Shown here: positions 1-27,859 of the stretch, in pieces
How the letters are laid out: the number at the start of each line of letters is the position of its first letter
Numbering within the stretch: the first letter of the stretch is position 1
DNA from: a virus
Length of the DNA stretch: 31,054 bases
IMG/VR virus record: IMGVR_UViG_3300030002_000081
Location: 1-31,054 of that record
Reading direction: 5' to 3' (one strand)
Program-made: the position numbers and the translations under genes
Notes under the pieces: generated by a model
The model's database searches: none
Seen by the model: only the letters and a program-made list of their open reading frames with translations
What the model was told of the DNA's origin: nothing

Positions 1-25
1 CAAGAGCCACGGCCTGTGTTAAAAT
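1..25 (+). promoter_or_regulatory. Partial sigma-70 promoter at window edge, inside an inverted repeat
   Basis: A TAAAAT -10 lies at 20-25 with TGT just before it (extended -10). Seventeen bases upstream the window begins with CA, which would be the last two bases of a TTGACA -35 cut off by the window edge. The element sits in an 11-bp perfect inverted repeat (arms 4-14 and 27-37, 12-base loop containing the -10). Transcription would start near 32, inside the right arm, and read the helicase gene. The -35 is an inference because only two of its bases are visible; the same geometry recurs at 11450-11478. Confidence 0.6.
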
Positions 26-57
26 GGGCCGTGGCTCAAACATATCTGGAAAATACA

Positions 58-1767
58 ATGAAAGTTGACGTGTTAAACGGTAAGTTTGCAATAAAATGTA
101 GTTACATGGAAAACCACCGCATCATGGAATTACCCAAGCGCGAGTTCAAGAAAAAATTCGCATTGTGGGCTGTGGCACCTACGTACGACAATGCTGTGGC
201 GTTGATAGCGGGTTTTTCTGATGATATGAGCGAGGAAGCTAAGAGATTAGCCAAAGAGATTGTGGCCGCAGCTACCCCCGTGACCATTGAAGGGGAACCC
301 CCCGCTGTTATTTTTAACGGTCTACTTGAGCACCAAATCACAGCCATCAACAAAGCGTGGAATCACGAAGCGTACGCCATTCTACACCGTCCCCGACTGC
401 GAAAAACATCAACCACTATCAGGCTGGCATGTGGCCGGTTTATCGCAGGACAGATTAACTCGCTATTGGTGGTATGCCCGAACTCCATAAAGTCGGTTTG
501 GGAGACTGAATTCGGGAAACGAGCTGTGTGCCCCTATAACCTGCATGTGTTAAATATCAAAAAAGACCCGAAGAAGAAGAAGATCGGGGCATGGCTGGAA
601 GAGGTCAAAGCAAAAACCACCAAGGGTGAGCCAAAGCTACAAGTGCTGGTGGTGTCGGTCGAGGGTCAGGCGTCGTTAGGCGGGCAAGAGTTGGCAAGAG
701 ATTTTGTAAGCATCTATGGCTCGCGCACTATGGCCGCCGTGGATGAATCCACCCGTATCAAGAATCACAAGAGCCTCAGAACTGAATCTATTTGGGACCT
801 AGGTACAGTCGCAGGATTCAGGAACATTTTAACGGGGTCTGAGATAACGCGGTCTCCATCAGACTTGTTCGCCCAGTTCCGGTTCCTAGGGATCCACACG
901 TTAGGCTATGACTCATTCCAATGCTTCCGTAATCATTTCGTTTTGATGGGAGGCTTCCAACGCAAAAAGGAGATTGGGGTAAAGAACGTAGAAGAGTTGA
1001 TGGCTAAGCTGTCTAAATATGCACATCTAGTCAAGACGTCAGATGTGGTAGACCTCCCGGATAAGACATTTAACCAGAGGATGGTCGAACCCACAGCCGA
1101 GCAAGTAAAAATGGTCAAAGAGCTACAAAAGACTCTTGAGACCTCTATGATAACGACTACGGATGAGCATGAGACCATAGTTAAAACAGCTATGACTCTA
1201 CTTTTAAGAGCGCAGCAAATAGCAGGAGGGTTTTTCCCGTCGCTGCAGGAAGACGGAACTACCATACCTATCCCTTTAAAAGTTAACCCTAAACTTGACG
1301 AATTGATGGATGTCATTGCCGAGGAACCCGGAAAAGTCATCATTTGGGCGCGGTTTGTGCCTGAGATAGAGGCTATCCGGGACGCGCTGTCTGATAGATA
1401 CGGCCCCGAATCAGTGGTCACATTTTATGGTGGTCGAGACGAGGACGAAAGGGTAGTTGCTCGTACAACTTTCCAATCAGATGAGCAGGTGAGATATTTT
1501 GTGGGCAACCCTACTTGCGGGTCCATGGGACTGGAGTTGAGCGCTGCTGATGTGATGGTCTATTATAGCATGGATTATCAATATGAAAGTCGGGTGCAGA
1601 GTCTTGAACGGGCCACGAATCTCGAAAAAACGCAGGGAATAGGGGTGATAGATCTTACACTGGATATAAACGCCGACAGATCTATCATGGAAGCCACAAA
1701 CCAGAAAAAAGACATCTCCGAATGGGTTGAGGAAGCTGTGCACTCAGGAAAATTCTCTTTAATCTAG
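58..1767 (+). CDS. SNF2/DEAD-like superfamily 2 DNA helicase
   Basis: 569-residue SF2 helicase of the SNF2-like type common in phage replication modules, expected to remodel or unwind phage DNA. Motifs in order: Q-type region LLEHQITAINKAW before the nucleotide site; a degenerate Walker A, RPRLRKTSTT, with Lys116; motif Ia VVCPNSIKSVW; Walker B DES at 229-231 followed by RIKN, the SNF2-style DEAH-box tail; motif III LTGSEITRSP; a C-terminal RecA lobe with VIIWARF, GSMGLELSAADVMVYYS and the motif VI region QSLERATNLEKTQ. The usual glycines of Walker A (GxGKT) are Arg/Leu here and motif VI ends in Asn rather than Arg. The start at 58 is chosen because an ATG-equivalent further upstream lies before the predicted transcription start. 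First gene of its operon; a promoter follows directly after its stop. Confidence 0.85.
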   Translation: MKVDVLNGKFAIKCSYMENHRIMELPKREFKKKFALWAVAPTYDNAVALIAGFSDDMSEEAKRLAKEIVAAATPVTIEGEPPAVIFNGLLEHQITAINKAWNHEAYAILHRPRLRKTSTTIRLACGRFIAGQINSLLVVCPNSIKSVWETEFGKRAVCPYNLHVLNIKKDPKKKKIGAWLEEVKAKTTKGEPKLQVLVVSVEGQASLGGQELARDFVSIYGSRTMAAVDESTRIKNHKSLRTESIWDLGTVAGFRNILTGSEITRSPSDLFAQFRFLGIHTLGYDSFQCFRNHFVLMGGFQRKKEIGVKNVEELMAKLSKYAHLVKTSDVVDLPDKTFNQRMVEPTAEQVKMVKELQKTLETSMITTTDEHETIVKTAMTLLLRAQQIAGGFFPSLQEDGTTIPIPLKVNPKLDELMDVIAEEPGKVIIWARFVPEIEAIRDALSDRYGPESVVTFYGGRDEDERVVARTTFQSDEQVRYFVGNPTCGSMGLELSAADVMVYYSMDYQYESRVQSLERATNLEKTQGIGVIDLTLDINADRSIMEATNQKKDISEWVEEAVHSGKFSLI

Positions 1768-3955: not shown

Positions 3956-4006
3956 TCAATATCCGCCATATTCGTATAGGGGCTAATGCCCAAAACAGGA
4001 AATAAG

Positions 4007-4246
4007 ATGGAAAACAAATCGTACGACCCCACCAACTCAGGTGCCTTGTTCCGCGCCAAAGAAAAACGCACTACAACAAGCCCGGACTACACCGGCAGCA
4101 TCAACATTGAAGGTAAGGAATTTTTTATATCTGGCTGGAAGAAAATGAGCCGTGCTAGTGAGACATTTCTGTCGCTCAAAGTGACGGCCAAAACCCAGCC
4201 TTCGAACATCCCGACGTCTAATGGCCCTGATGATCAGCCGTTTTAA
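4007..4246 (+). CDS. Small DUF736-like protein with SSB-type C-terminal tip
   Basis: 79 residues. Pattern: SYDPTNSGALFRAKEK, then SPDYTGSINIEGKEFFISGWKK and FLSLKVTAKT, a small beta-rich fold of the DUF736-like/OB-like type. It ends in GPDDQPF, very close to the DDIPF tip by which bacterial SSBs recruit partner proteins. AGGA sits 6 bases before the ATG at 4007, so I prefer this over the upstream in-frame ATG at 3986. It lies 9 bases before the polymerase start and is likely co-translated with it. Probable small ssDNA-binding or SSB-mimicking accessory protein of the replisome; the fold assignment is by eye. Confidence 0.72.
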   Translation: MENKSYDPTNSGALFRAKEKRTTTSPDYTGSINIEGKEFFISGWKKMSRASETFLSLKVTAKTQPSNIPTSNGPDDQPF

Positions 4247-4255
4247 GGGGGCGTT

Positions 4256-6121
4256 ATGTACACACCTGAATTATTCCCCGAGCTATCCACATTCGACAAG
4301 ATAGCTTTCGACACAGAGGCCACGGGCCTCTACTACCCCAGAGATAAAGTTTTCGGCATATCGGTGTCTACCCCTGATGGCAGTGATTATTACTGGGATG
4401 TTCGCCGACAGCCAGAGGTGAAGCGCTGGTTTAATAAGCAGATGAAGTCATACAAGGGCGTAATTGCAATGCATAATGCCCACTTCGACTGCAAAATGGG
4501 CTATGGCATGGGGCTTGAAATCCCTTTGGGTCAAGTACGGTGTACTCAAATACAGGCATGCTTGATAAATGAGCACGAGATGGAATATTCCCTCGACGCT
4601 CTGTCTAAAAAGTATTTGAAAGACAACAAAGTAGATGATATCTACGAAAAATTGGCAGCTATTTTCGGTGGCCGCGCCACTCGCGCCGCGCAAATGCCTA
4701 ATCTCCATAAAGCGCCTCCCGAGCTGGTAAGCCCGTACGCCAAGCAGGATACCTCACTTACTCTGCGCCTATACGACTGGCAAGTAAATCACATCACAGA
4801 AGAAAAACTCCAAGAAGTAGTGGACTTTGAATTTGGGGTGTTCCCTACTCTGCAGCGCATGACCCGGCGTGGCGTTAGGGTAGATTTGGAAGCGGCTAAC
4901 GCGGCTATCTTGGAGCTAGATGTCATCATTGCCGAAGACCAAACCAAAATCAATTCCTTGGTGGGGTTTGAGCTTAATGTCAATAGCGCCCCGCAAATCA
5001 AAAAGGTTTTTGATCCGCACAAAGAAGGCAATGTATGGATCGCCAACAACGGCTACCAAGTAGAAACCGCCAAGAAAACGGGAGGGCCGTCGATGCCCTC
5101 CCCTGTCTTACGTGAGATGGTGAATGACCCAAGAGCGCAATTGATAGTTGATATCCGTTCTAACATCAAAACGCGCGACACATTTTTAAAGGGCCACGTA
5201 ATTGGGCATGCGGTTGGTGGCCGTGTGTATCCGTCCATCAACCAATGCAAGGGTGAGGACGGCGGTACAGGCACCGGAAGGCTGTCATACCAAGAGCCAG
5301 CACTGCAGCAGATTCCGAGCCGAAACAAACGTGTAGCTAAGATAGTTAAATCTTGTTTCCTTCCAGAGGTAGGACACCGCTGGGGCAGCACTGACATCAT
5401 GTCGTGCGACGTTCGGGTGTTTGCTCATCTGGCGAATAACGAAGTGGTTATCGCAGCGTACGCCGAGAATCCAGAACTTGACTTCCACCAATTCACCGCC
5501 GATTTGATGGGGATCAAACGAAATGCGACGTACTCGGGGGAAGTAAACGCCAAGCAGTTAAATCTATCGATGATATTTAACTCAGGGAATGGTGCTATTG
5601 CCGAGAAGTTGGGCCTTCCTTTTAAATGGGAATCCTTCACATCGCGTGGCGAATTGGTCACATACAAAAAAGCTGGCAAAGAAGCCGAAGAAGCTATATC
5701 TATGTACCACCAGAAGGTGAAGGGGGTTAAGGACCTAGCTGAACGAGCCAAGAAATGCGCCGAGCAACGCGGGTGGGTGCGAACTCACTCAGGGCGCAGG
5801 ATGAGATTCCCTAGGGGGCATAAATCATACGCCGCATCAGGGTTGATAATCCAAGGGACCGCAGCCGATGTTAACAAAACGGCTCTTACTGTTCTGGAGG
5901 CTACGTTAGCCCGTCACGATTCTTTTCTACTCCTTAATGTGCACGATTCGTTTGAATTCTCAGTGCCCCTCGAAAAAGACATAGCCGAAGTGTGCTGGGA
6001 CGTAGTTAAATCATTCCAAGATGCTTTCCCGTGGATGAGAGTACCGATGATGCTTGAGCTGAACGGCACCGGGAAAACATATTTCGAAGCATCCACGGCC
6101 AAAGGCCAATATCTCTATTAG
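4256..6121 (+). CDS. dpoZ: Family A DNA polymerase with 3'-5' exonuclease, DpoZ-type candidate
   Basis: 621 residues, no 5'-3' nuclease domain. Proofreading exonuclease: Exo I D19/E21 (FDTEATG), Exo II N74/D78 (HNAHFD), Exo III Y161/D165 (YAKQD). Polymerase: TGRLSYQEPALQQIPSRN; motif A D380-I-M-S-C-D385-V-R; motif B E429-V-N-A-K433 with L437 and F441; motif C V562-H-D564-S565. Compared with Klenow, the motif A Glu is Asp, the O-helix Arg754 position is Glu, Phe762 is Leu, Tyr766 is Phe and the motif C Glu after the catalytic Asp is Ser; the two metal-binding Asp remain. With PurZ, MazZ and DatZ 3 kb away this fits the DpoZ polymerases that accept 2-aminoadenine. GGGGGC precedes the ATG. The gene symbol reflects the context; the polymerase call itself is certain. 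Confidence 0.93.
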   Translation: MYTPELFPELSTFDKIAFDTEATGLYYPRDKVFGISVSTPDGSDYYWDVRRQPEVKRWFNKQMKSYKGVIAMHNAHFDCKMGYGMGLEIPLGQVRCTQIQACLINEHEMEYSLDALSKKYLKDNKVDDIYEKLAAIFGGRATRAAQMPNLHKAPPELVSPYAKQDTSLTLRLYDWQVNHITEEKLQEVVDFEFGVFPTLQRMTRRGVRVDLEAANAAILELDVIIAEDQTKINSLVGFELNVNSAPQIKKVFDPHKEGNVWIANNGYQVETAKKTGGPSMPSPVLREMVNDPRAQLIVDIRSNIKTRDTFLKGHVIGHAVGGRVYPSINQCKGEDGGTGTGRLSYQEPALQQIPSRNKRVAKIVKSCFLPEVGHRWGSTDIMSCDVRVFAHLANNEVVIAAYAENPELDFHQFTADLMGIKRNATYSGEVNAKQLNLSMIFNSGNGAIAEKLGLPFKWESFTSRGELVTYKKAGKEAEEAISMYHQKVKGVKDLAERAKKCAEQRGWVRTHSGRRMRFPRGHKSYAASGLIIQGTAADVNKTALTVLEATLARHDSFLLLNVHDSFEFSVPLEKDIAEVCWDVVKSFQDAFPWMRVPMMLELNGTGKTYFEASTAKGQYLY

Positions 6122-6129: not shown

Positions 6130-6933
6130 ATGTTACCTATTTTCAGATGGGCCGGTGGTAAGCGACGCATGATCCCGAAACTGATGGAGCATATGCCATC
6201 AGAGTACGATACATTCATCGAGCCGTTTGTAGGCGCGGGGGCTATGTTCTTTCACCTAGAACCCGCCAAAGCTATCATTGGCGATGCTAACAGCGATTTG
6301 ATGGCAGCATATAAAGCGATCAAAGTGCTAGGCTCGGGTCTGGCAGAGCGGGTAAACGCATGGGAGAACAGCCCGACAGATTATAACATAGTCAGGTCGC
6401 TGTCCCCTGACTATTCGGTAAACAAGGGGTGCAGGTTTATTTATTTGAATAGGCTATGTGTGAACGGTTTGTGGCGTGTCAACAAAAGAGGTGGATTTAA
6501 TGTACCCTATGACTATCGGCGCAGCGGGGTAAGCCCTATCATAGATGGGGATGTGCTGGATAAGGCGCAAAAGGTGCTGAGACACGCGGCCACAATCACC
6601 TCACACTACATAAATACCACAGCATTGGCATGCGCAGGGGATGTGGTATTTATGGACCCTCCTTATATTCCTTTTACTAAAAATGGCCATGTGGACTACA
6701 CAGCTAAGGGTTTCACCGCTGCTGACCACTTAGCTCTTTGTGATGAGTTTAAAAGACTCGACTCTATAGGCTGCCGGGTGATATTGACTAACTCAGATCT
6801 TCCCGAAGTGCGTGAGATGTACGAAGGCTACACCATCGAGCGGGTAGAGACCAAATCCACCATAAAGCGCACCGCAAACCAAGGATCATACGGAGAGCTT
6901 ATCATCAGTAACAGACCTAAGGCTGAAAGTTAA
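6130..6933 (+). CDS. dam: Dam-like DNA adenine-N6 methyltransferase (D12 class)
   Basis: 267 residues, the usual length for Dam-type alpha-class enzymes. N-terminal FRWAGGKRRMIPKL matches the conserved WaGGK element; motif I is FIEPFVGAGAMFF (about residues 29-41, AdoMet binding); GDANSDL is the acidic adenosine-binding strand; the catalytic motif IV is DPPY at 176-179; C-terminal ILTNSD and IKRTANQGSYGELIISN complete the D12 pattern. It would methylate N6 of the target purine, classically in GATC. It lies 8 bases after the polymerase with an AGGGG Shine-Dalgarno. In a genome expected to carry 2-aminoadenine, the substrate may be Z rather than A, or the enzyme may act on host DNA. All hallmark motifs look intact. 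Confidence 0.92.
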   Translation: MLPIFRWAGGKRRMIPKLMEHMPSEYDTFIEPFVGAGAMFFHLEPAKAIIGDANSDLMAAYKAIKVLGSGLAERVNAWENSPTDYNIVRSLSPDYSVNKGCRFIYLNRLCVNGLWRVNKRGGFNVPYDYRRSGVSPIIDGDVLDKAQKVLRHAATITSHYINTTALACAGDVVFMDPPYIPFTKNGHVDYTAKGFTAADHLALCDEFKRLDSIGCRVILTNSDLPEVREMYEGYTIERVETKSTIKRTANQGSYGELIISNRPKAES

Positions 6934-6959: not shown

Positions 6960-6988
6960 TTGACAGCATCACCAGGATATGATACAAT
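6960..6988 (+). promoter_or_regulatory. Sigma-70 promoter of the purZ operon
   Basis: TTGACA at 6960-6965, 17-base spacer, TACAAT at 6983-6988 with TGA before it (extended -10). A small inverted repeat, CAGGA 6973-6977 and TCCTG 6990-6994, brackets the -10. The leader (about 6995-7057) can fold a GGGC/GCCC stem at 7005-7022. It is the only clear promoter upstream of the Z-base genes. Confidence 0.88.
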
Positions 6989-7057: not shown

Positions 7058-8140
7058 ATGAAAAACAATCGTAAAGTTGATGTGGTAGTGGATTTGCAGT
7101 TCGGGTCTACTGGTAAAGGCTTGTTGTGTGATTTTCTTGCAGTGGCTGGTAAATATGACACCGTAGTTAATGCGAATCTCCCTAATGCGGGCCACACCAC
7201 AGTCACCCCGGAAGGGCGCGTCTGGATGCATAAGGCGATGCCCAACGCCGTCATGGTGTCTAAGCGCATTATGATGGGTCCCGGAAGCGCCTTCTCACCT
7301 GCCCGTTTAGCGGAAGAGCTGAAAGGGGTCGCTGACTTGATCGAAGGCAAGATTTTCGTAATCCATGAAGCTTGTATGATCGTGACCCAAGAAATGAAGG
7401 ATAAAGAGCAGCAAACTCTTTCCCGCATTTCTTCCACCATGCAAGGCTCCGGTGAAGCGGTCGTTTCAAAAATCCGCCGTGAAGTGGGTGCCATTGCCCG
7501 CGATCAGATGCCGTTGCTGGCTGAATACGGTCTCGACAAGTATGTGGTAAGCCATGCTGATTACCTCCAGCACCTGCTTGATTCTGAGAGCATCTTGGTG
7601 GAAGGCGCGCAGGGATATTCCTTGGGCCACAATTCCGGCTTTTATCCGTATTGCACCTCCCGTGACTGCACCGTAACCCGTTACATGGCAGACTGCGCCA
7701 TTCCGGCAGGGTGGTTGCGTAAAGCTATCGGTGTGGCTCGGCTTCATCCGATCCGGGTTGGCAATACTGCTGACGGCTTCAGCGGTGATATCTACCCAGA
7801 CCAAGAAGAGCTTACTTGGGAACAATTGGGCGTAGCTCCCGAGCTTACTACCGTCACCAAACGTGTTCGCCGCGTGTTCTCATTCAGCTACGCACAGATC
7901 CACGAAGCCATCATTGCCAACGGCATTGATGAGGTAATGCTAAATTTCGTAAACTACAACCCGCATCAAGCGGTTGACGTCATCGAACAGGTTAATGAGA
8001 TGATGGGCGATCTTGGCTACATCGACAAAGACATCATCACCATGGTCGGGACCGGCCCTCGCCGCGATCAGGTCATCAGTGTCCAAGAATTCTTAGACCG
8101 CTATGAAGAACGGGGCTATGGCGCGGAGGACTGCGAATAA
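7058..8140 (+). CDS. purZ: PurZ, 2-aminodeoxyadenylosuccinate synthase (PurA homologue)
   Basis: 360 residues, shorter than bacterial PurA (about 430). PurZ condenses dGMP with aspartate to 2-aminodeoxyadenylosuccinate, which host PurB turns into dZMP. The N-terminal P-loop-like segment is DLQFGSTGKG (12-21): Ser17 stands where PurA has its catalytic Asp in WGDEGKGK, the known PurZ hallmark. The general base His46 is kept (NAGHTT), as is EGAQGYSLGHNSGFYPYCTSRD, while the PurA TRVGEGPFPTE loop is altered to IRVGNTADGFSGD. First gene after its own promoter with a GGGGA ribosome site; it overlaps mazZ by one base (TAATG). Alternative: an ordinary PurA, made unlikely by Ser17 and by the MazZ and DatZ neighbours. 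Confidence 0.94.
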   Translation: MKNNRKVDVVVDLQFGSTGKGLLCDFLAVAGKYDTVVNANLPNAGHTTVTPEGRVWMHKAMPNAVMVSKRIMMGPGSAFSPARLAEELKGVADLIEGKIFVIHEACMIVTQEMKDKEQQTLSRISSTMQGSGEAVVSKIRREVGAIARDQMPLLAEYGLDKYVVSHADYLQHLLDSESILVEGAQGYSLGHNSGFYPYCTSRDCTVTRYMADCAIPAGWLRKAIGVARLHPIRVGNTADGFSGDIYPDQEELTWEQLGVAPELTTVTKRVRRVFSFSYAQIHEAIIANGIDEVMLNFVNYNPHQAVDVIEQVNEMMGDLGYIDKDIITMVGTGPRRDQVISVQEFLDRYEERGYGAEDCE

Positions 8141-8454
8141 TGAATAGCCGCTCACCTGACATCAATGCTATGATGGAAGCGCAAGCGGCGTGGATTGAAA
8201 CATTGTTGGCGGGAAGAGATTCCCGCCGCACTGTCATAAAAATGGCAGGGGAAGTGGCCGAATTGATGGAGGCTGTTACCCTAGGAACCAAAGACGTGGC
8301 CGGTGAGATCGCCGACATACTCATTTTGGCTCTGGATGTGGCTAAATTACATGGCATCGATCCATCCGAAGCGTTCTATGATAAATTGGAAATAAACAAA
8401 AATCGTTCATGGCACCCAAGCGGCGGCTGTTTACAGCACAACAAAGAGACCTAA
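8140..8454 (+). CDS. mazZ: MazZ, MazG-like (d)NTP pyrophosphohydrolase
   Basis: 104 residues, single MazG-type four-helix domain. The metal-binding signature is E38-x-x-E41 (GEVAELMEAV) and E56-x-x-D59 (GEIADILIL), followed by a C-terminal AFYDKLEINKNRSWH typical of all-alpha NTP pyrophosphatases. In Z phages the enzyme converts dGTP to dGMP, supplying PurZ, and in some cases removes dATP. Translationally coupled to purZ through a TAATG junction with GGAGG upstream, and one base before datZ. Called MazZ rather than generic MazG because of the cassette; sequence alone would support only MazG-like. Confidence 0.9.
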   Translation: MNSRSPDINAMMEAQAAWIETLLAGRDSRRTVIKMAGEVAELMEAVTLGTKDVAGEIADILILALDVAKLHGIDPSEAFYDKLEINKNRSWHPSGGCLQHNKET

Positions 8455-8455
8455 C

Positions 8456-9046
8456 ATGGACATTAAAAAATTAAGGGCTGCGTGGCACCTCAATGAAATC
8501 AAACGATTCCATATGGTGAACACCAAGACCACCCAAGACGTGGCGCAACATTCATTCAGGGTGGCGTTCATATCTAAACACATCGCTCAAATCGCAAGAG
8601 AACGCGGTATGCTAGGTATTGACCCTAATCATGCGTTCTATTTCGGCGCATGTCACGACATGGATGAGATGACTACGGGGGATATCCCTTCTCATGTTAA
8701 AATCGCTTTACGAAGTGCTGGTGTTGACATAGCCTCTTTGGCCGAAAAAGATGGGTTTAAAGAGGTAAATGGATCGTATAAATGGATCGTAAAAGCGGCA
8801 GATCTAATAGAGTCGGTCTACTGGTGTGAAGTGAATATTGACCCGCTAGACACCAGAGCAGCTAGCGTCAAAGATTTCATTTCAAAAGCTTTTGATAACT
8901 TTATGATCTATTTGATGACTTTGGAGGGGCCGGGTTCCCCTGTTGCTTATGTTGCAGTGGCTCAAGCGCGAGATGACATCGAGCACATCACCCACACTTG
9001 GTGCCAAAATTACGACTTAGAGTGGCCATCCGATGAAAGAAGCTGA
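8456..9046 (+). CDS. datZ: DatZ, HD-domain dATP triphosphohydrolase (YfbR-like)
   Basis: 196 residues. The HD-domain ligands are visible: His32 (QDVAQHSFRV), His67-Asp68 (GACHDMDE) and Asp116 (KAADLIES), with the YfbR-type MTTGDIPSHVK loop at 72-82. DatZ enzymes hydrolyse dATP to deoxyadenosine and triphosphate, clearing the competing nucleotide so that only dZTP is left for DNA synthesis. It begins one base after the mazZ stop and its end overlaps the nuclease gene by 14 bases. YfbR-like 5'-nucleotidases acting on dNMPs share this pattern; the purZ-mazZ context makes DatZ the better call. Confidence 0.9.
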   Translation: MDIKKLRAAWHLNEIKRFHMVNTKTTQDVAQHSFRVAFISKHIAQIARERGMLGIDPNHAFYFGACHDMDEMTTGDIPSHVKIALRSAGVDIASLAEKDGFKEVNGSYKWIVKAADLIESVYWCEVNIDPLDTRAASVKDFISKAFDNFMIYLMTLEGPGSPVAYVAVAQARDDIEHITHTWCQNYDLEWPSDERS

Positions 9047-9461
9047 TCTGAGAACTGAAGTTGGTAGTGCTTTATCTAAGATGCACCCTAAGGCTCATTT
9101 ATCATGGATAGAGTCGCCGGTCACATCAGCGGGTTTCCCCGACCTTGATTGCTGTGTCGAAGGGCGAGTGGTCCAGATAGAGCTTAAAGTAGTGAAGAAG
9201 GGGGGCGGCATCGAAATACGGCCCACGCAATACCGGTGGTTCAAGGATAGGGCTAAAGCCGGGGGGCAGCCGGTTATGTTAATTGGTGATGATGACTGTT
9301 ACTATGTGCTACCGGCAGTATCTGTGTCGGAGCCGGACGGAATTTTTAACATAGTCCATCTGGCTGGTCGACCTCATTACCGTTCTTCAACAATAGAGTA
9401 TGCATTAGACGCAGCTCTATTGATATCAATCCATGGGAGTATTGTATGTCCGATAAAATGA
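9033..9461 (+). CDS. VRR-NUC domain nuclease
   Basis: 142 residues. PD-(D/E)xK-type active site in the VRR-NUC arrangement: G34-F-P-D37 (SAGFPDLD), E50-x-K52 (QIELKVVK) and the helix Gln in RPTQYRW (Q66). An early Glu (E9) would be the fourth acidic residue. Single-domain phage VRR-NUC proteins are structure-specific nucleases, possibly junction resolvases acting on replication or recombination intermediates. It overlaps datZ by 14 bases and the next gene by 16, so it belongs to the purZ operon. The residues after about 95 (SVSEPDGIFNIVHLAG onward) are an extension beyond the usual domain. Confidence 0.85.
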   Translation: MKEADLRTEVGSALSKMHPKAHLSWIESPVTSAGFPDLDCCVEGRVVQIELKVVKKGGGIEIRPTQYRWFKDRAKAGGQPVMLIGDDDCYYVLPAVSVSEPDGIFNIVHLAGRPHYRSSTIEYALDAALLISIHGSIVCPIK

Positions 9462-9826
9462 CCAAAATCCTTGCCGAGCGCGGCGAACAATACGGCAGCT
9501 ATCGCAGCCAAGCGGAGCTTAGCAGAGCCATTCGCGACCTTGTTTTAAGTCATATCAAATGTGAAATTCCAGCGTATATGGAAGAGTCCATTAACATGAT
9601 CTCGCACAAGATCGCACGTGTGGCCAACGGCAATACTCACAACGTCGATTCATGGCGTGATATTGCCGGTTATGCTACCCTCGTAGCCAATCTTCTCGAA
9701 GAAGAGAACAATGGTGCTGAACCCGCCCCTGTCACCCGCCGTGAGGGAAAAAGCCCAACCGAGAAAGCTGGGAAAAGCGGAGTATACGTCACGGATGAAC
9801 CTGAGGGCTGTCAAGCTCGTTTTTAG
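9446..9826 (+). CDS. DUF6378-like phage protein
   Basis: 126 residues. The core, ERGEQYGSYRSQAELSRAI through NMISHKIARVANGNTHNVDSWRDIAGYATLVANLLEE (residues about 10-92), matches the pattern of a helical phage family annotated as DUF6378, found in many nucleotide-metabolism modules; biochemical role unknown to me. The last 35 residues are Pro/Lys/Gly-rich and likely disordered. GGGAG precedes the ATG, which lies inside the end of the nuclease gene. Its place at the end of the Z-base operon allows a role in nucleotide control, but nothing in the sequence proves it. Confidence 0.75.
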   Translation: MSDKMTKILAERGEQYGSYRSQAELSRAIRDLVLSHIKCEIPAYMEESINMISHKIARVANGNTHNVDSWRDIAGYATLVANLLEEENNGAEPAPVTRREGKSPTEKAGKSGVYVTDEPEGCQARF

Positions 9827-9871: not shown

Positions 9872-10525
9872 ATGAACAAAACAATTACCGCATTTGTGGT
9901 GTTCGCGGCGTCGGTGTTGGTGTCTACGGGGGCAGAACCGCTGTGCCGTTGGTATGCGTTGAATTTGCCCGTGGAGTCCACAGAAAGATCACCGTTTGAT
10001 TCGTTCATGGTAAGAAAATTTCTTACCCCCGACGAGCAGGTGTCACTGGGTAGCTCCTATGATGTCACAGAAGCAGCCATGGCCATCGATAAAGGAGCCA
10101 GCGTCAAGGCCGCTATGAGAATAGAGGAGGCCAACCGGAAAGACGTCGCTACTAAAAATTTGGTCCGTGATTGGACTCGAGTGTCCGTCAATATGTGGAC
10201 CATATGTTCCGCTGAAGATGTGATGGTGTGTCTAGTAGTGGCCCCGGACAGCAGCGTTATTTATCTCAGCGGCATCGATGAGACTGAAAACCAAACATGT
10301 AAAGCATCAGTCTCTTATGCGGGCGTGGCACTGCCCCCAGTGGAAGCATATATCTACAATGGCAATCTATCTCTGTACGTACCAAAAACCAAGACTGGCA
10401 AAGACGCGATAGTTGCAGTTCGCAATACTCACATGTTTAGTGTGTCCTATGCATGTGTGGGGTCATCTGCCACATACAACTTCAAAGCCCCGCAGCCGCT
10501 GAAAAACAGAGAGGTCCCTCGGTGA
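9872..10525 (+). CDS. Exported hypothetical protein
   Basis: 217 residues. The N-terminus (MNKTITAFVVFAASVLVSTG) is a Sec signal or single membrane anchor, predicted cleavage near residues 20-22. The mature part has several Cys, a helical first third (ITPDEQ-like LTPDEQVSLGSSYDVTEAAMAIDKGA) and a beta-rich rest ending in a basic segment. It is not recognised. It lies between the Z-base operon and the ligase and overlaps the ligase start by four bases (GTGA), an odd place for an exported protein. It may act on the host envelope, for example in exclusion of other phages; that is speculation. Confidence 0.75.
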   Translation: MNKTITAFVVFAASVLVSTGAEPLCRWYALNLPVESTERSPFDSFMVRKFLTPDEQVSLGSSYDVTEAAMAIDKGASVKAAMRIEEANRKDVATKNLVRDWTRVSVNMWTICSAEDVMVCLVVAPDSSVIYLSGIDETENQTCKASVSYAGVALPPVEAYIYNGNLSLYVPKTKTGKDAIVAVRNTHMFSVSYACVGSSATYNFKAPQPLKNREVPR

Positions 10526-11439
10526 ACCGTTTAATGTTAGCTCCCAACGAACGTATCGAAGAAGTGGTTGAAAAATACCCATTGCAATGGCCGATGTTGG
10601 CGTCGGCCAAAATAGACGGTAACCGCATAGCTGTAAGGGAGAAAATGGCCATCACCCGGTCAGCTAAACGCGCCCCCAACTTATACTTACATAAGATGCT
10701 GGGGTATGACGCGTTTCACGGGATTGACGGGGAGCTTACAGTGGGTGCCCCCAACGCCGAAGACGTGTATATAAAGACGCAGGTTACACGGCGCATAAAA
10801 TCAGAGCCAGCCGATGAGCCTTGGACTCTTAATGTGTTTGACTTGTTTGATATGCCCGGTTACTCTTACTCCGATCGTTACGATATGCTGCAAGAAAAAT
10901 TCGCCACTACTCTACGTGATGTGCCTGATATCAGGCTTGTTGCTCAAAAATTAATATCATCACAAAATGAGTGTGATGATTATGAGAATGAGGAATTGGA
11001 GAACAAATACGAAGGGATTATGATCAGAAAGATACTAACCCCCTACAAATATGGTCGGTGCACCCCCAAAGAGGGTAACATTCTAAAGGTGAAACGATTT
11101 GAATTTGACGAAGCTGTGGTGGTTGATTTCGAAGAATTGATGATAAACACCAATGAAGCCTATATCGCCGAAAACGGGTATCAAAAGCGGTCCACAGCAG
11201 CAGGGGGTATGATACCCGGTGGAACCCTTGGTGCGCTGTGGTGCGCTGAAATTAAAACTGGCCTTTTGTTTAAAGTAGGGTCCGGTTTTGGCAAGGAATT
11301 GCGCCAAGAGATATGGGGCAGCCGGGATAAGTGGGTCGATGAGACCATAAGATTTAAGCATTTCCCTGTAGGGAGAAAAGACCTGCCGAGATTCCCTATC
11401 TACGCCGGTACTCGAGACCCGGACGATATTCTGCAATAG
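10522..11439 (+). CDS. ATP-dependent DNA ligase
   Basis: 305 residues from the GTG at 10522, which overlaps the previous stop (GTGA) and has AGAGGT 6 bases upstream; an in-frame ATG at 10534 is the alternative. Motif I K30-I-D-G-N-R carries the adenylated Lys; motif III region DGELTVG; motif IV EGIMIRK; motif V LKVKRFEFDE. A C-terminal OB-fold-sized part follows (about residues 195-305). Seals nicks in phage DNA during replication and repair. The small size is usual for phage ligases. No other promoter lies just upstream, so it is expressed with the exported protein gene. Confidence 0.93.
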   Translation: MNRLMLAPNERIEEVVEKYPLQWPMLASAKIDGNRIAVREKMAITRSAKRAPNLYLHKMLGYDAFHGIDGELTVGAPNAEDVYIKTQVTRRIKSEPADEPWTLNVFDLFDMPGYSYSDRYDMLQEKFATTLRDVPDIRLVAQKLISSQNECDDYENEELENKYEGIMIRKILTPYKYGRCTPKEGNILKVKRFEFDEAVVVDFEELMINTNEAYIAENGYQKRSTAAGGMIPGGTLGALWCAEIKTGLLFKVGSGFGKELRQEIWGSRDKWVDETIRFKHFPVGRKDLPRFPIYAGTRDPDDILQ

Positions 11440-17136: not shown

Positions 17137-17859
17137 TTAAGCAGGGAATTGCATGATAATTTTTACGCCCATAGGTTTAGGCAGAACGTCCCACGCGGCC
17201 AAGTTAGCTACCATTGGGTCGCTTAATTTATAAGGGAAGACATAAGTTAAGGTCATATTCCCGGAATCCAAAACGTAGGGAGTCTGGCTTATGGGGGCTG
17301 ACACACCGCCCGACACGTTTAACTGACCAGTTATCTTAAAAACATCAGCTAAGGCCGCATTTAGGAATGGCACAGTGCAGTTGCCTATACTTCTGTAGTA
17401 AACCAGCTTAAGCATCTGCACTTTTTCAAGAATAGTCATCGCGGTGGCTATAGATGCCGGGGTAAAGTTACCGCCCAACCCCGAAACGGCTGGGTCTTCC
17501 ACTATACCGAAGTTTTCACGGGATGTGCCTGCCACTATAGTGGACCCTATGTTTTCAAAGGACCAAGGTTGTTTCATCCCATCCCTAGGAATTAGGATAG
17601 GCTCCAGCGGAAAATCCAATATCATAGCCCAGATGACGCACCCAAACAGAGATGTGTGGACATGAGTCATGCTGGCCGGGTCATAATTGATTTCTAACCG
17701 GAAGACACCTTCCCTCCAATTAGACCAGAAGGTATCAAAGTATTCGGAGTACCAAGCGTCTTTCTGCTTAAGTAGCTTCAGAAATGGGTCTGCGTTGTCG
17801 TACTGCCAGATGTTGGCCAGCAGACAACTACGCCTTTGGTTAAATGTTTGAGTTATCAT
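17137..17859 (-). CDS. Baseplate protein, DUF2612-like
   Basis: 240 residues from the ATG at 17859, overlapping the baseplate J stop (ATGA). The C-terminal pattern SGNMTLTYVFPYKLSDPMVANLAAWDVLPKPMGVKI is typical of phage DUF2612 proteins, which follow baseplate J and link the wedge to fibres (the position of P2 gpI). The middle has FGIVEDPAVSGLGGNF and a helix-rich MTILEKVQMLKLVYYRSIGN. Family call moderate; the baseplate role is supported by order. Confidence 0.78.
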   Translation of the reverse strand: MITQTFNQRRSCLLANIWQYDNADPFLKLLKQKDAWYSEYFDTFWSNWREGVFRLEINYDPASMTHVHTSLFGCVIWAMILDFPLEPILIPRDGMKQPWSFENIGSTIVAGTSRENFGIVEDPAVSGLGGNFTPASIATAMTILEKVQMLKLVYYRSIGNCTVPFLNAALADVFKITGQLNVSGGVSAPISQTPYVLDSGNMTLTYVFPYKLSDPMVANLAAWDVLPKPMGVKIIMQFPA

Positions 17860-19109
17860 CAGGCACCCCTTGGAACTACTACTATAGAACCAACAGGAAG
17901 GAGAGCCTGCTCCCATAGCTCAATAGGGATTTCCTGCCCCGCAGTCACTGTTTTGCCAGTCACTGTGACGCTTGAGATGTACAATCCGGGGTACACTGCA
18001 GCTACAGCACCACTAAGCTCATATGCGGACAAATTTCTGCCGATAGTAAGACCCGGATCACCATTGATTAGACCGTTTTGATACTTGTTTACAGCATCCT
18101 GAACTGCGAACTGTGGCTCATAATTACCGACCGACTGCGATGAATCATAGGTAACGACGCAGGTACAAGATACGATATCTGGCCTCGCGTGAAATATTGT
18201 GTAGGGCTGGCCGGATGCCGGTTCTATAAGTGAGGTAGTCACCGGAGTACCCTTGGCCGTCTGCCCTACTGTCCATGCTGCTCCTACTCCCTTAGCGGTC
18301 AAAAGAGCAGCGGCTATATCAGCATCGAGAGCGCCCTGTACACAAACATATATACTATTAGGGGGCATCGATATCCCATTTATGACCGCTATTGACGAGT
18401 CGTCATTATCTCGTATGGTCATGGACCGATATCCGGATAATGCGCTCACACCAGCTTTAATAGCTCTTATTGTATTACTTGATTGGGCCGCCAGTGTGCT
18501 TTTACGTCTTCTTCTGGCTGCTACATCAGACTCGGTGACTTGGCCCGTGGTCCCATCAAGAAGGTTAACTACTTTAGTAATATTAGATGGCGCAGTACTC
18601 GAAATCGACCATACTGTGTTAGCTAGAACTGGAATGGCCCCCGCAACAGCCGCCTGAAAAGTGGCTAGACCGTAATACGTGTTGGGAGTGACTGTGGTAT
18701 CCACTTGGTTCAACACTACTGCGGTCTGCTGATTAAATATGTTGCCTGCCGAGTCATAGATAGCCAGCCCGGACGGGGATGTAGAGCCATTGGTGCCGTA
18801 CACCCTAGCGCCAAACACGGTGGGTGTGGATACGTAGGGGGTTCCCCCCATCAAAGAAAATAGCGAAGCTAGGAACACGCCGCCTGACTGGTCGGGATTT
18901 ATCTGATTTGCGATCCCAGCAGTGTACGCAATTACGTTGGACCTAGCAGTTACTTCACCATCAACCAAACGACCTTGGGGGGTGGCATCAGTCAAGTCCA
19001 TATTCGAGCCAAGAGCCAGCTTGAATTCACCTTGTACGTCAGATTTTAACGTACTTGTGTCCGGGACGATAAGACCAGTATCCCTGTCATAATCGTAGTA
19101 ATTAGCCAT
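17859..19109 (-). CDS. Baseplate J-like wedge protein
   Basis: 416 residues. N-terminus DYDRDTGLIVPDTSTLKSDVQGEFKLALGSNMDLTDATPQGRLVDGEVTARSNVIAY is the standard baseplate J/gp47 opening; the middle beta region and RRRRKSTLAAQSSNTIRAIKAGVSALSGYRSMTIRDN and the end (NKYQNGLINGDPGLTIGRNLSAYELSGAVAAVYPGLYISSV) complete the pattern. It forms the baseplate wedge with the 113-residue gp25-like protein encoded just upstream; the two genes overlap by 8 bases. Confidence 0.93.
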   Translation of the reverse strand: MANYYDYDRDTGLIVPDTSTLKSDVQGEFKLALGSNMDLTDATPQGRLVDGEVTARSNVIAYTAGIANQINPDQSGGVFLASLFSLMGGTPYVSTPTVFGARVYGTNGSTSPSGLAIYDSAGNIFNQQTAVVLNQVDTTVTPNTYYGLATFQAAVAGAIPVLANTVWSISSTAPSNITKVVNLLDGTTGQVTESDVAARRRRKSTLAAQSSNTIRAIKAGVSALSGYRSMTIRDNDDSSIAVINGISMPPNSIYVCVQGALDADIAAALLTAKGVGAAWTVGQTAKGTPVTTSLIEPASGQPYTIFHARPDIVSCTCVVTYDSSQSVGNYEPQFAVQDAVNKYQNGLINGDPGLTIGRNLSAYELSGAVAAVYPGLYISSVTVTGKTVTAGQEIPIELWEQALLPVGSIVVVPRGA

Positions 19110-19443: not shown

Positions 19444-19766
19444 GATCGCACCGTAACTAAATCTGATGGGCTATAGTACGCAAGGAATGTAGTAACTCCG
19501 AAATCACTGTACAAAGGGTAATTCTCAGAGTCATTCCAATAGGCAAAATTTCCTCTCCCCGCTTCTTTGTATAAAGGGAGCAAGAAGTTAGGCAAAGGTC
19601 CTGACGTCACACATCTCAAACCAGTAACTAAAGCGACGCCGTTTCTGGATATGTCGACTGTCATAAAATTATTCACTGATTTAGGGACCACTTCGTAAAA
19701 ATCACTATCCTCAGTGAACGTCACTGATTGGTTAGGCAAAGTGCTTGTCAAAGACACTAATTTCAT
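19440..19766 (-). CDS. Baseplate plug-like protein
   Basis: 108 residues. The arrangement MTVDISRNGVALVTGLRCVTSGPLP, GNFAYWNDSENYPLYSDFGVTTFLAYY resembles the small beta proteins that plug or cap the baseplate hub in Pam3-type myoviruses. It lies between the hub and wedge genes with ATGA couplings on both sides. The family assignment is tentative. Confidence 0.6.
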   Translation of the reverse strand: MKLVSLTSTLPNQSVTFTEDSDFYEVVPKSVNNFMTVDISRNGVALVTGLRCVTSGPLPNFLLPLYKEAGRGNFAYWNDSENYPLYSDFGVTTFLAYYSPSDLVTVRS

Positions 19767-20644
19767 GCTGTGGCTGCCTTAGGATATGCTGTAAATGAAG
19801 CGTAAAAAGGAGTGTCACGGCAAGTGAGTTCATAGTCTATTTTGCCTACTACATAAGAACCATTTATTGATGGGTTCATAACGGACACTGCATTTACGGC
19901 GCACCCTAACTTCAATTCAGGTGTAAACAGAACCTTTCCCGCGATACCGAACTCTGTCCATTCAGGAATTCCTATGAATGGATTTTCGGACCCGTACCCG
20001 ATTTGAACAGTTCCCCTGGATGCCACCACTGCACCAATAGTCATGACTACCAGAGCGCTATCGTCGATAAAAGCTACTATTTGGTCCGGGTAATAACGCT
20101 GGATGTAAATCGGAATAGCCTCCAGCGTTATCATGTTGCCGCCCAAAAAATTGGTGACCGGAGCGTTGGCTAGGCTTGCTGGTAGATGTATCTCGGGAGT
20201 CAGGCCCAAAACGCCAGCCGCCCACTGGCACAGCCCACTAAAAGTGGTTGGCAGTTTGGGCCAGTATTGGACCCATTTGGTTTTATCTATTTGGTTTGTG
20301 GCCAAATCCATGATTACGCTGATATCTGGGGGGTTGCCCATGCTACATTTTATAACATTGCCTGTATACACCAGAGACGGCCCGTAGCTTTCACGGCCCG
20401 CTGATATATTTACAGGCAAAAAAGGCGTTTCTTGGGTTCTTAGCGCGAATTGGTTGAACCGGGTCATCATGTCTGCCCGTACTTCTCTACGAACGTTTTT
20501 AATTTCCAACCTTGAGTTGTTTTGGATGCTAAAAACGTTCTTACCTGCTGAAAATGAGATCGCAAAATCCTCTTTATACTCCACTATATCAGCTCCCGAG
20601 TTGAACAGGAATTGAGCGCGCAGAAGTCGAGGATCTATGATCAT
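19763..20644 (-). CDS. Baseplate hub protein (gp44/gpD-like)
   Basis: 293 residues with the hub pattern: an N-terminal beta part (FAISFSAGKNVFSIQNNSRLEIKNVRREVRADMMTRFNQFALR), YTGNVIKCSMGNPPDISVIMDLATNQ, WAAGVLGLTPEI, FLGGNMITLEAIPIYIQRYYPDQIVAFIDDSALVVM and a C-terminal beta barrel (VNAVSVMNPSINGSYVVGKIDYEL). It forms the trimeric hub that binds the spike. Four-base overlaps with both neighbours. A consensus promoter lies inside the gene upstream (20881-20909). Confidence 0.8.
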   Translation of the reverse strand: MIIDPRLLRAQFLFNSGADIVEYKEDFAISFSAGKNVFSIQNNSRLEIKNVRREVRADMMTRFNQFALRTQETPFLPVNISAGRESYGPSLVYTGNVIKCSMGNPPDISVIMDLATNQIDKTKWVQYWPKLPTTFSGLCQWAAGVLGLTPEIHLPASLANAPVTNFLGGNMITLEAIPIYIQRYYPDQIVAFIDDSALVVMTIGAVVASRGTVQIGYGSENPFIGIPEWTEFGIAGKVLFTPELKLGCAVNAVSVMNPSINGSYVVGKIDYELTCRDTPFYASFTAYPKAATA

Positions 20645-24953: not shown

Positions 24954-25715
24954 TTACGATCCAAATGGGCCTACGCGCCCACCTTCAGGGTTAGAGTGAG
25001 TGTGGCCGCCTACAGCCGTACCGGCCACAGTGAGACTATCAACAGATGAACCGCCTGCACCGCCGCTGGATGTAAAGCCAGATTGCATAACAGTAGCCCC
25101 TGCTATGGTGACGTTCCCGGAAAAGCGGCTATCTGCCGATACCACATCAAGAAGGCCCATAGTGGTTAGAGTTATTTTACCATTTACTAACTCGACGTAG
25201 GTTTCGCCTGCAGCTATTTTTACGCGACCTTGACCTATAGCCACCCTATTATTCCCGTCTACACTCTGCAGCACCATTTCATCCGCATGTTCTCCCCTAA
25301 TCACATATCGACGCATCACGTCAGGTAAAAATAAACTATCCGAGAATGTGTGTGTTCTACATGTATTAGGAGCACCTTCAGATAGGCTAATTTTAAAGGC
25401 GTCTAGATCGCGATCAGACGCCTTTATCCAGCCTAGGTCGCCAGCCACTAGAGGAAAGTTTAGGTGATAACCACCCCCGCCAAACGAGAAAACCTGCAGC
25501 CCTACTACTTGGTTCCTTGGTACTACTTGGTTGTCAACCGTGATCCGGCTTACTAGTGGTTTCACGGTTGCAGTGTTACTGACCCTGTCGTACGACATAA
25601 TCACCGCCGGTAAACAGTCGTCGATGTTAAGAAAATAATCTCTTAACATTTTATTTAATGCCGATGGTGTCGACTCATGGTCCGATGGGTTTACTGCCGT
25701 AGCGGCGGTGGTCAT
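24954..25715 (-). CDS. Central spike, Gp138-N/gpV-like, with metal-binding tip
   Basis: 253 residues from the ATG at 25715, 8 bases after AGGAG; longer in-frame reading upstream would lie before the promoter. The N-terminal OB-type domain (LRDYFLNIDDCLPAVIMSYDRVSNTATVKPLVSRI, FSFGGGGYHLNFPLVAGDLGWIKASDRDLDAF, HTFSDSLFLPDVMRRY) is the pattern of phage phi92 gp138. Then comes a beta-helix-like part (VAIGQGRVKIAAGETYVELVNGKITLTT) and a tip with GGHTHSN, an HxH motif which in P2 gpV and phi92 gp138 binds iron. Pierces the outer membrane. It has its own strong promoter. Confidence 0.9.
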   Translation of the reverse strand: MTTAATAVNPSDHESTPSALNKMLRDYFLNIDDCLPAVIMSYDRVSNTATVKPLVSRITVDNQVVPRNQVVGLQVFSFGGGGYHLNFPLVAGDLGWIKASDRDLDAFKISLSEGAPNTCRTHTFSDSLFLPDVMRRYVIRGEHADEMVLQSVDGNNRVAIGQGRVKIAAGETYVELVNGKITLTTMGLLDVVSADSRFSGNVTIAGATVMQSGFTSSGGAGGSSVDSLTVAGTAVGGHTHSNPEGGRVGPFGS

Positions 25716-25732
25716 TTTTCTTCTCCTAAAGA

Positions 25733-25754
25733 AAAGGACGGTTTCCCGTCCTTT
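25733..25754 (-). terminator. Hairpin with U-rich tail between tube and spike genes
   Basis: On the - strand a 9-bp stem (25754-25746 with 25741-25733) with a GAAA loop, followed by TCTTT. It would end read-through from the tube gene, yet sits directly after the -10 of the spike promoter, so RNA started there would lack most of the left arm. Confidence 0.7.
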
Positions 25755-25783
25755 ATTATACCATCCACACAACTTTCTGTCAA
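25755..25783 (-). promoter_or_regulatory. Full-consensus late promoter for the spike and tail operon
   Basis: Read on the - strand: TTGACA 25783-25778, 17-base spacer, TATAAT 25760-25755 with TGG before it. The -35 contains the stop codon of the tube gene (TGA 25782-25780). Drives 25715 down to the fibres. Confidence 0.92.
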
Positions 25784-26229
25784 GCCGAGGTGATGCCCTC
25801 AAATGCAAAGTTATATGTTTTTGACTTCTGACGTTGTGACTGCTGGATGCCATTGGTTGGCATGCCATCAGTCAGAATACCTTTGGACAGAGTGTAAGAT
25901 CTTGCCCCGTCACCCGGATAAATGACAGAAATACTTATTTCATCACTGGCGATGGACTTACCTTTACCCGGTCGGTTGGCTTCGAACAGCACACGCATGT
26001 TCTCGTCGTCCTCGGAACCGGGGATGACGTTAAAACTAACGGTGATGGGATTAGCCTTTGACCAGTGAACCATGTCACCGTTGATACCCATCCCTTTGTC
26101 AGCAATCTGGATGCTAGGCACATCAAAAGGGTCAGCATCATCTGCGAACATAGTCAGAGGGAAGCCATTCGGAAAGGTATTGCTAGCCTTAACTGTGGCC
26201 ACAAAACCAAAAGCACTTACGTTTTGCAT
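25780..26229 (-). CDS. Tail tube protein
   Basis: 149 residues. Tube-fold pattern: FVATVKASNTFPNGFPLTMFADDADPFDVPSIQIAD, MVHWSKANPITVSFNVIPGSEDDENMRVLFEANRPG, and the C-terminal KTYNFAFEGI strand. Located directly after the sheath gene with AAGGAG before the ATG, which is the usual order. It forms the inner tube through which DNA passes. A diverged paralogue lies at 23483-23977. Its stop codon doubles as part of the next promoter. Confidence 0.88.
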   Translation of the reverse strand: MQNVSAFGFVATVKASNTFPNGFPLTMFADDADPFDVPSIQIADKGMGINGDMVHWSKANPITVSFNVIPGSEDDENMRVLFEANRPGKGKSIASDEISISVIYPGDGARSYTLSKGILTDGMPTNGIQQSQRQKSKTYNFAFEGITSA

Positions 26230-26239: not shown

Positions 26240-27859
26240 TTAGATCAGCACATCAGAGCCAACCACACGGCGGATGACGTCGTCCTTGGAGTAAACCAAG
26301 GTGTAATTAAACTGCCATTCAGTCAATGACGACTGCGCATTAACCGTTGATGATAGGGTGGCGTTGATCCAGTACCCGGCGACCTGCACTTGGTGCCACG
26401 CCTTGTCCGACCCTGTGATCTGCGTGATATATGCTTTCTGTGTTGCATTTAAAGGCTTACCCACAGAAATAGTACCATTCGTCAATGCGGTATCGATGGT
26501 GCTTTGCATATTAAGCAACAACTGGCCGCGTCCGATTTCATTGGCAGATACTTTCATAGCCAACAACAGACTGAGGATGTTGGACAGAAATGCGTCCTTC
26601 AGCCACATCTCGTTAGCGTAGGTGTTCATGTCGGTGGCGGAGGTAGCGCCGCCCATCAAAACGCCACGTTGATAAAAGGCGATCTGCTGACCGGCTGTCA
26701 TAGTGACGCCTTGGTAGTTCACGCGGATCCCATCAAGGGCATCAGATACTGCAGTGTCCCCCACAGACCCGGCATTAGCAACCAAGTTGCCTTCTGAGTC
26801 AGCAGTGAAGCTACGGTCGGTGAACTGATAGTACATATAGCCCTGAGTACCATTGGTAGCCGTGTAGTCAGTCGCAGCCAAAATCTCCATAGGAGACTGA
26901 GCTTGGAACAGCTCTGAGTCAGTAGATGGAGAGCCACCATTATCTTGGGTCAAAGTGAACCCGCAGCCGCCAATACCCATAAAAGTAGCGTACCATGCTT
27001 GGGTGGCCTGTGAGCGGGTCACGTAGTGGGAGAAGATAAATTTGTTGTTAAACGCAGCGTTCCACAAGGCCACGTCCTGCGGGCGGTTGCCCACTACAGA
27101 GGACTGCCAGTCATCAAGCGCATCGATAAAGGCAAATGAGCCAAAATTATCGCTCTTGTTGGTGGTTCGGTCCATTGTTTGCACAGCATTATCGCCGACA
27201 CGACCTGCTGAAGACGTAAAATCGCCATCTGCAAAGCCCAAAAGGACTGACGCATCATTAGACGCAGCTGCTGTGATGATGATCGACCCTGCAGTCGTAC
27301 CCGTCGACCCGGTGATGATCAATCGGTTGGACGAGATGTTGTAAACAACCGTGGCCCCCGCAAGGGCAGAGATGCCAGCCGCTGCTGTTTGAATAGCTGT
27401 TTGGATGATCGGGGCAAGATCAAGAAAGCTTGATGCTGGGCGGGCATCAAATCGAACGGAGACTGCAGATGCAGAGCCGTATGTAATTTGAAATCCAGCA
27501 TTAGCAGACATTGCTTGGATCTGGCTCAAAATAGTCGGTGTTTTCGGTGTTGAATTACCGGTAAACACTGGCGGAATGAACGTAGTCGTGTCCCAACGCA
27601 CAAAAGACATCATCGGCGGTGACTTGACGTCTTTGTTTACGAATTTAAAGTAAGCCAATGCTCGGCGATATTCAGGTGACGAGACATCATTGTTGAATTT
27701 AGCCAGAACCGCTGGTGCGCTTTTTGCCTCGAAGATGGTGTCCCGAGACAAAAAACTTGACTTAGTGATGAAACGGCCTACTAGCTGGCGCGTCGCCACG
27801 CCAGCCCCGGCACCCACACCGGACGTGATGTTGATATACTTAGTGATGTCGATTGACAT
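26240..27859 (-). CDS. Contractile tail sheath protein (DUF3383-like)
   Basis: 539 residues. The sequence fits the DUF3383 sheath family: MSIDITKYINITSGVGAG, RQLVGRFITKSSFLSRDTIFEAKSAPAVLAKF, YFKFVNKDVKSPPMMSFVRW in the N-terminal domain; GFADGDF and DALDDWQS in the middle; and QGVTMTAGQQIAFYQRGVLMG, NEMWLKDAFLSNILSLLLAMKVSANEIGRGQLLL toward the conserved C-terminal core. This gene makes the phage a myovirus. AGGAG precedes the ATG; it is 10 bases before the tube gene. Confidence 0.93.
   Translation of the reverse strand: MSIDITKYINITSGVGAGAGVATRQLVGRFITKSSFLSRDTIFEAKSAPAVLAKFNNDVSSPEYRRALAYFKFVNKDVKSPPMMSFVRWDTTTFIPPVFTGNSTPKTPTILSQIQAMSANAGFQITYGSASAVSVRFDARPASSFLDLAPIIQTAIQTAAAGISALAGATVVYNISSNRLIITGSTGTTAGSIIITAAASNDASVLLGFADGDFTSSAGRVGDNAVQTMDRTTNKSDNFGSFAFIDALDDWQSSVVGNRPQDVALWNAAFNNKFIFSHYVTRSQATQAWYATFMGIGGCGFTLTQDNGGSPSTDSELFQAQSPMEILAATDYTATNGTQGYMYYQFTDRSFTADSEGNLVANAGSVGDTAVSDALDGIRVNYQGVTMTAGQQIAFYQRGVLMGGATSATDMNTYANEMWLKDAFLSNILSLLLAMKVSANEIGRGQLLLNMQSTIDTALTNGTISVGKPLNATQKAYITQITGSDKAWHQVQVAGYWINATLSSTVNAQSSLTEWQFNYTLVYSKDDVIRRVVGSDVLI

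Follow-up and report, generated by a model that had tools for sequence, protein, structure and literature searches.

Results

The analyzed window, a 31,054-bp IMG/VR virus record of metagenomic origin (IMGVR_UViG_3300030002_000081) with one end lying within a capsid gene, carries four intact genes of a predicted 2-aminoadenine (Z) pathway on the plus strand. These are dpoZ (4256..6121), for a predicted aminoadenine-selective family A DNA polymerase with a 3'-5' exonuclease; purZ (7058..8140), for a predicted succino-amino-deoxyadenylate synthase; mazZ of the MazZ-1 type (8140..8454), for a predicted (d)GTP pyrophosphohydrolase supplying dGMP; and datZ (8456..9046), for a predicted HD-type dATP triphosphohydrolase. 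The original prediction had read the last three ORFs, with the same boundaries, as a tightly coupled Z cassette, and this reading was upheld by PDB, PHROGs, and NCBIfam matches; purZ and mazZ overlap by 1 nt, and mazZ and datZ lie 1 nt apart. At the level of sequence, the E-values of the purZ, mazZ, and datZ matches rule out chance. The PolA described as divergent and 1 kb upstream was correctly placed, ending 937 bp before purZ, but it lies on the same strand and is DpoZ itself.

The 360-residue PurZ best matched the phiVC8 enzyme in the PDB (6fm1, E 7e-91), followed by a second PurZ (7odx, E 4e-59), with PurA far behind. As had been claimed, the catalytic Asp of PurA (Asp13, within WGDEGKG in the E. 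coli enzyme) is replaced by Ser17 within FGSTGKG, Ser or Gly at this position being the mark of PurZ that was looked for, and Ser occupies the same position in all IMG/VR contigs among the matches listed. The score against NCBIfam NF038379 was a bare pass (300.8 bits; cut-off, 300), which was counted against a Z reading. By analogy, PurZ would make dSMP from dGMP and aspartate. MazZ, matching S-2L MazZ (7ody, E 9e-12), contains the anticipated MazG-type metal-binding motifs E38xxE41 and E56xxD59, and the alignment revealed conservation of the K, N, R, and W residues of the S-2L MazZ pocket.

The proposed HD type of DatZ was borne out by a match to the dATP triphosphohydrolase family phrog_7076 (E 4e-22). 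Its structure, modeled by AlphaFold2 with 26 relatives (pLDDT 87), is consistent with the fold of S-2L DatZ (6zpa; TM-score, 0.65/0.73), which ranked second by E-value in the structure search and had the highest target TM-score among the matches listed, with E. coli YfbR close behind. Invariant columns include R17, A30, H32, H67, D68, E71, G75, D76, K82, and D116 of the window protein; the residues assigned to metal and phosphate binding in S-2L DatZ (PMC8065100), namely, H34, H66, D67, and D119, the second-site residues E70 and D75, and R19, K81, and K116, are kept. The S-2L selectivity positions W20, I22, and P79 are occupied by Phe18, Met20, and His80, which was counted against a Z reading, I22 being the residue that excludes the 2-amino group (PMC8065100). 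At I22 and W20, the pocket positions that select against Z and against ribonucleotides in S-2L, the exchanges are conservative, so that a like specificity may be presumed at most; ZP6 and Burkholderia phage Bm1 likewise have Met in place of I22.

DpoZ matched 7pbk (E 5e-197) far more strongly than Klenow (1e-34) in the PDB search, 7pbk being the phiVC8 DpoZ structure (PMC11946847), and scored 835 bits against the aminoadenine-incorporating polymerase family NF038380 (cut-off, 500). The phiVC8 DpoZ clade is marked by three insertions together with L455, F459, G548, and S583 (PMC8599892), and the window protein carries all of these as well as R440. The PolA of Ochrobactrum phage OH (L015 2963-4789) lacks the insertions and F459, so this clade test discriminates; OH has PurZ and HD/MazG genes, and its polymerase may either be a Z polymerase of another kind or lack selectivity. 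Phage phiJL001 has a DpoZ-like polymerase but carries no Z genes (PMC8599892). Motif A of the window DpoZ (DIMSCDVR) has Asp385 where other aligned references have Glu, a substitution shared with G001, a 63.7-kb close relative from another metagenome that has both the Z block and the structural module. We take this position to be that of the Klenow steric gate, Glu710. The motif A Glu is a general PolA residue and not a clade mark, and Asp385 was counted against a Z reading. These departures bear on an alternative in which the cassette is active but the virion DNA is an A/Z mixture, partial or regulated, with DatZ or DpoZ being less discriminating here. We regard such a mixture as unlikely: the changes at the I22, W20, and P79 positions of DatZ, the E-to-D exchange at the DpoZ gate, and the continued carriage of an adenine-N6 methyltransferase, where E. 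coli methylases are poor on Z (PMC8342488), fit it, but the same Met is found in ZP6 and Bm1, and DpoZ otherwise has all the clade marks tested. In the reading that we favor, adenine would be largely or wholly replaced, and DpoZ would by analogy prefer dZTP over dATP.

The Z genes form part of a compact block. An ssDNA-binding protein homologue (SSB; 3986..4246, plus strand; 48% identity to Bm1 SSB) precedes dpoZ, a Dam-family N6-adenine methyltransferase gene (6130..6933, plus strand), not named in the original prediction, occupies the interval between dpoZ and purZ, and datZ overlaps by 14 nt the next gene, for a nuclease/helicase-associated small protein (phrog_2165; 9033..9461, plus strand), which is followed by a DUF6378 gene (9446..9826, plus strand). 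The last two are kept after datZ in Bm1, phiVC8, and BUCT555. From SSB through DUF6378, neighboring genes overlap by up to 16 bp or lie up to 9 bp apart. The one exception is the 124-bp interval ahead of purZ, which contains a sigma-70-type promoter with an extended -10 element (TTGACA-N17-TACAAT with TG; 6960..6988, plus strand); G001 and Bm1 have a promoter before purZ with identical hexamers and spacing.

The methyltransferase scored 202 bits against TIGR00571 (cut-off, 115), retains its DPPY motif, and has the GATC enzyme DpnM as its nearest PDB relative (E 1e-43). It is also present in G001 (79% identity), and no match was detected in the other Z loci tested. GATC is only mildly rare in the window lineage, at 0.55-0.70 of the trinucleotide expectation. 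The modified base 6-methyl-2-aminoadenine confers endonuclease resistance, and E. coli methylases are weak on Z (PMC8342488). We suggest, only tentatively, that the enzyme may give additional protection where restriction enzymes can still cut Z-DNA or guard A-holding DNA. If the genome is Z-DNA, this methyltransferase inside the Z block would have 2-aminoadenine as its substrate, and its place beside the Z genes raises the question of whether Z-DNA is also methylated. GATC avoidance was considered as a mark of Z genomes and rejected, being strong in phiVC8, ZP6, PMBT28, and PSA28 but absent in S-2L, SH-Ab, and Bm1. Counts of 2-14 GATC sites against about 100-140 expected were observed in L008, L009, L013, L016, and L045 (phiVC8, ZP6, PMBT28, PSA28, and 3300024581_001758), and CCGG sites are few or missing in ZP6, SH-Ab, and L045.

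The window also encodes contractile-tail and head proteins on the minus strand. The sheath and wedge of the original prediction were recovered in PHROGs as a tail sheath (26240..27859; phrog_205, E 1e-32; 41% identity to Bm1 and 43% to Carpasina) and a baseplate wedge subunit (17859..19109; phrog_6, E 1e-32), together with a baseplate hub (19763..20644; phrog_196, E 5e-21), neck proteins, and a major head protein truncated where the window stops (30391..31041; phrog_264, E 1e-45; 64-65% to Carpasina and Bm1). The predicted spike (24954..25868) is 40% identical to Carpasina gp28, which is annotated as a baseplate spike. With sheath, hub, and wedge present, the phage is predicted by homology to be a myovirus, as first proposed; its relative Bm1 is a published myovirus with a contractile tail by transmission electron microscopy (TEM) (PMC12003559). 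No phage record matched the window by megablast. A second large contig, G002 (51.6 kb), shares genes of about 100% identity with the window at both ends and thus very probably stems from the same genome or one almost identical to it. Tail genes foreign to a Z phage, through a chimeric contig or in a virion that is not a myovirus, might be suspected in a 31-kb metagenomic contig ending inside a capsid gene, but G001 from another metagenome has the same joint arrangement, G002 overlaps the window at both ends, and the isolate Bm1 has both modules with contractile tails by TEM. This alternative is therefore largely refuted, and we give it hardly any credence.

Genes flanking the Z block belong to a known myovirus backbone: a SNF2-type helicase (16..1767), common to Carpasinavirus/Pbunavirus and Bm1, a Pam3 gp33-like protein (PF23984; 2457..3044) on the left flank of the block, a Pam3 gp34-like protein (PF23977; 3120..3923), the final backbone gene on that side, and an ATP-dependent DNA ligase (10453..11439) on the right, all on the plus strand. 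Carpasina carries Pol III alpha, Pol III epsilon, and thymidylate synthase, as does JG024; the Carpasina proteins were not detected by tblastn in G001, G002, or Bm1. With the backbone Pol III not detected, DpoZ is most likely the replicase. This bears on another alternative, namely, that the phage has ordinary DNA and either gained the cassette recently or is losing it. No chemistry was found for the window lineage, Dam-type methylases are common in ordinary-DNA phages, and DatZ diverges fast, with 68% identity between the window and G001 against 96% for PurZ, all of which would suit ordinary DNA. However, the four genes are intact in the window, G001, and Bm1, DpoZ as well as PurZ is strongly conserved between the window and G001 (92% for DpoZ), and DpoZ is the likely replicase of a genome with no detected Pol III, so that ordinary DNA appears very improbable.

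An IMG/VR alignment search yielded 130 PurZ loci, of which 80 were kept, all with Ser at the catalytic position. In the PurZ tree, which had been suggested as a check, the window, G001, and Bm1 proteins formed one clade (support 100/100); neither Carpasinavirus nor Pbunavirus was among the PurZ matches listed. When the records behind the longer PurZ loci were searched for sheaths, these were found in G001, G002, G013, G017, G018, G067, G068, and Bm1, accompanied by a hub, tape measure, or wedge in G013, G017, and G067 and by a wedge in G018; the tail type of G068 rests on the sheath alone. The PurZ phages 3300022750_000026, 3300034170_000047, 3300049297_000014, 3300042897_000946, and 3300010231_000012 have sheaths only distantly similar to that of the window. 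Mapped onto the PurZ tree, the presence of a sheath requires four changes, forced by well-supported branches, and none of the bootstrap trees requires just one; the four places are a detected count and not a number of gains, as the remaining records are partial or may have other sheath families. The Z trait thus appears to travel as a module among phages of different virion type. Rooting with E. coli PurA was rejected because of its long branch (10 changes per column), so no order of tail types is claimed.

Near-consensus sigma-70 promoters (TTGACA, 16-18 nt, TATAAT, with 5 of 6 positions or better) were in excess in the Z-cassette phages and occurred in most of the Z-cassette groups tested, phiVC8 and SH-Ab 15497 among them. 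The 22 Z-cassette groups had 108 sites in 988 kb (4 expected from shuffles), 103 of them with TG before the -10 element, against 4 sites in 721 kb in four non-Z control groups (4 in shuffles, 0 with TG) and 2 sites in 205 kb in structural relatives of G001. The window has 7 sites, G001 25-27, and G002 19, mostly with TG, where about 0.3-0.5 would be expected in each. Those of the window lie at 1771, 3045, 6960, and 11450 on the plus strand and at 30328, 25783, and 20909 on the minus strand. The palindrome CCACAGGGATGTGG, possibly an operator, lies between the -35 and -10 elements in both promoters 1771-1799 and 3045-3073. Every such site has TG in phiVC8 (3/3) and in SH-Ab 15497 (5/5), both established Z phages, and S-2L has no near-consensus site. 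In phages picked by promoter pattern, among the matches listed, TG occurred in 47/158 sites (about 30%), at a lower GC of 0.38-0.39; the Fisher p for the difference in TG share from the Z set (1e-29) is too small, since sites in related phages are not independent, and host, GC, and ancestry were only partly controlled in the comparison. A few contigs without a PurZ match were equally TG-rich. The extended -10 element was discarded as a Z indicator by itself, PurZ being found in 1 of 47+47 pattern-picked records, an already known Z contig. It is possible, although we consider it somewhat doubtful, that Z-DNA reshapes transcription and that phages with Z genomes depend on sigma-70 promoters that are close to perfect and have an extended -10 (TTGACA-N17-TGnTATAAT); Z:T pairs, with three hydrogen bonds and a minor-groove amino group, would impede -10 recognition or melting by host RNA polymerase.

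Discussion

Our analysis indicates that the window very probably derives from a phage that has a contractile tail and carries the full phiVC8-type Z block, and in whose virion adenine would be largely or wholly 2-aminoadenine. This reading draws on the family tests, the clade marks, the DatZ residues and fold, the operon-like spacing, and the retention of the cassette in G001 and Bm1, as well as on the undetected Pol III in G001, G002, and Bm1, the PurZ clade, the contractile-tail genes, and the TEM of Bm1. We infer each enzymatic reaction of the pathway, and A-to-Z replacement in the window lineage itself, from characterised relatives. MazZ would convert (d)GTP to (d)GMP, PurZ would join dGMP and aspartate into N6-succino-2-amino-dAMP, and host PurB and kinases would carry this product on to dZTP. 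With DatZ depleting dATP, DpoZ would copy the genome with dZTP preferred, so that 2-aminoadenine would replace adenine in virion DNA largely or wholly, and the resulting Z-DNA would block many host restriction enzymes.

The Z gene set is already known, and its contractile-tail carrier is the point of interest. The expectation that Z phages are mainly siphoviruses stood as far as siphoviruses are concerned, but podoviruses (ZP6 and the phiVC8 group) are also known (PMC8599892, PMC8515928), and the DpoZ paper names both Siphoviridae and Podoviridae (PMC8599892). The whole Z replication block, comprising DpoZ and the PurZ-MazZ-DatZ triad, would now be placed on a third tail type. The passages found in papers that combine PurZ or 2-aminoadenine with a myovirus or a contractile tail, as far as read here, report no Z myovirus. 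Judged by gene content, the window phage is nevertheless not the first such genome on record, as Bm1 and several IMG/VR Z-cassette phages also have sheaths. The genome section of the Bm1 paper gives two DNA polymerases without further comment, and the words adenylosuccinate, aminoadenine, and dATP are absent from the whole paper (PMC12003559). The Bm1 genome was sequenced on ONT. Bm1 having been isolated and described by microscopy in a paper silent on the cassette, Z-DNA in a myovirus is directly testable.

Carpasinavirus and, in part, Pbunavirus share with the window a homologous head and tail module, the helicase, the gp33- and gp34-like genes, and the ligase, and the structural genes of the Carpasinavirus myoviruses are syntenic with those of the window (capsid, 64%; sheath, 43%). 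Three small genes separate the gp34-like gene from the ligase in Carpasina, whereas in the window this interval is filled by SSB-DpoZ-methylase-PurZ-MazZ-DatZ followed by two small genes and one additional ORF; in Carpasina terms, the Z block is flanked by the gp39-like gene on one side and the ligase on the other, both of which are shared. Most simply, a myovirus backbone would have exchanged its Pol III system for a phiVC8-type replication block. In Burkholderia phage Bm1 (PP183292), whose closest relative is BCSR129 (MW460247), the order SSB-DpoZ-PurZ-MazZ-DatZ-small nuclease-DUF6378 is as in the window, and the structural module is of the same type (identity: PurZ, 60%; DpoZ, 58%; capsid, 65%; sheath, 41%). 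Bm1 differs in lacking the methyltransferase between dpoZ and purZ, in having a tRNA-Met before dpoZ, and in retaining Glu at the DpoZ gate. Vibrio phage phiVC8, in which Z biosynthesis was elucidated (PMC12884076), shares with the window the gene order DpoZ-(x)-PurZ-MazG-type-DatZ and the downstream small genes (PurZ, 48%; DpoZ, 51%). An integrase-annotated gene stands where the window has the methylase, its shorter MazG-type protein has no BLAST match to the MazZ-1-like protein of the window, and its tail type is different. The siphovirus cyanophage S-2L shares the compact PurZ-MazZ-1-DatZ triad (PurZ, 38% identical), but it has only a non-selective PrimPol where the window phage has DpoZ.
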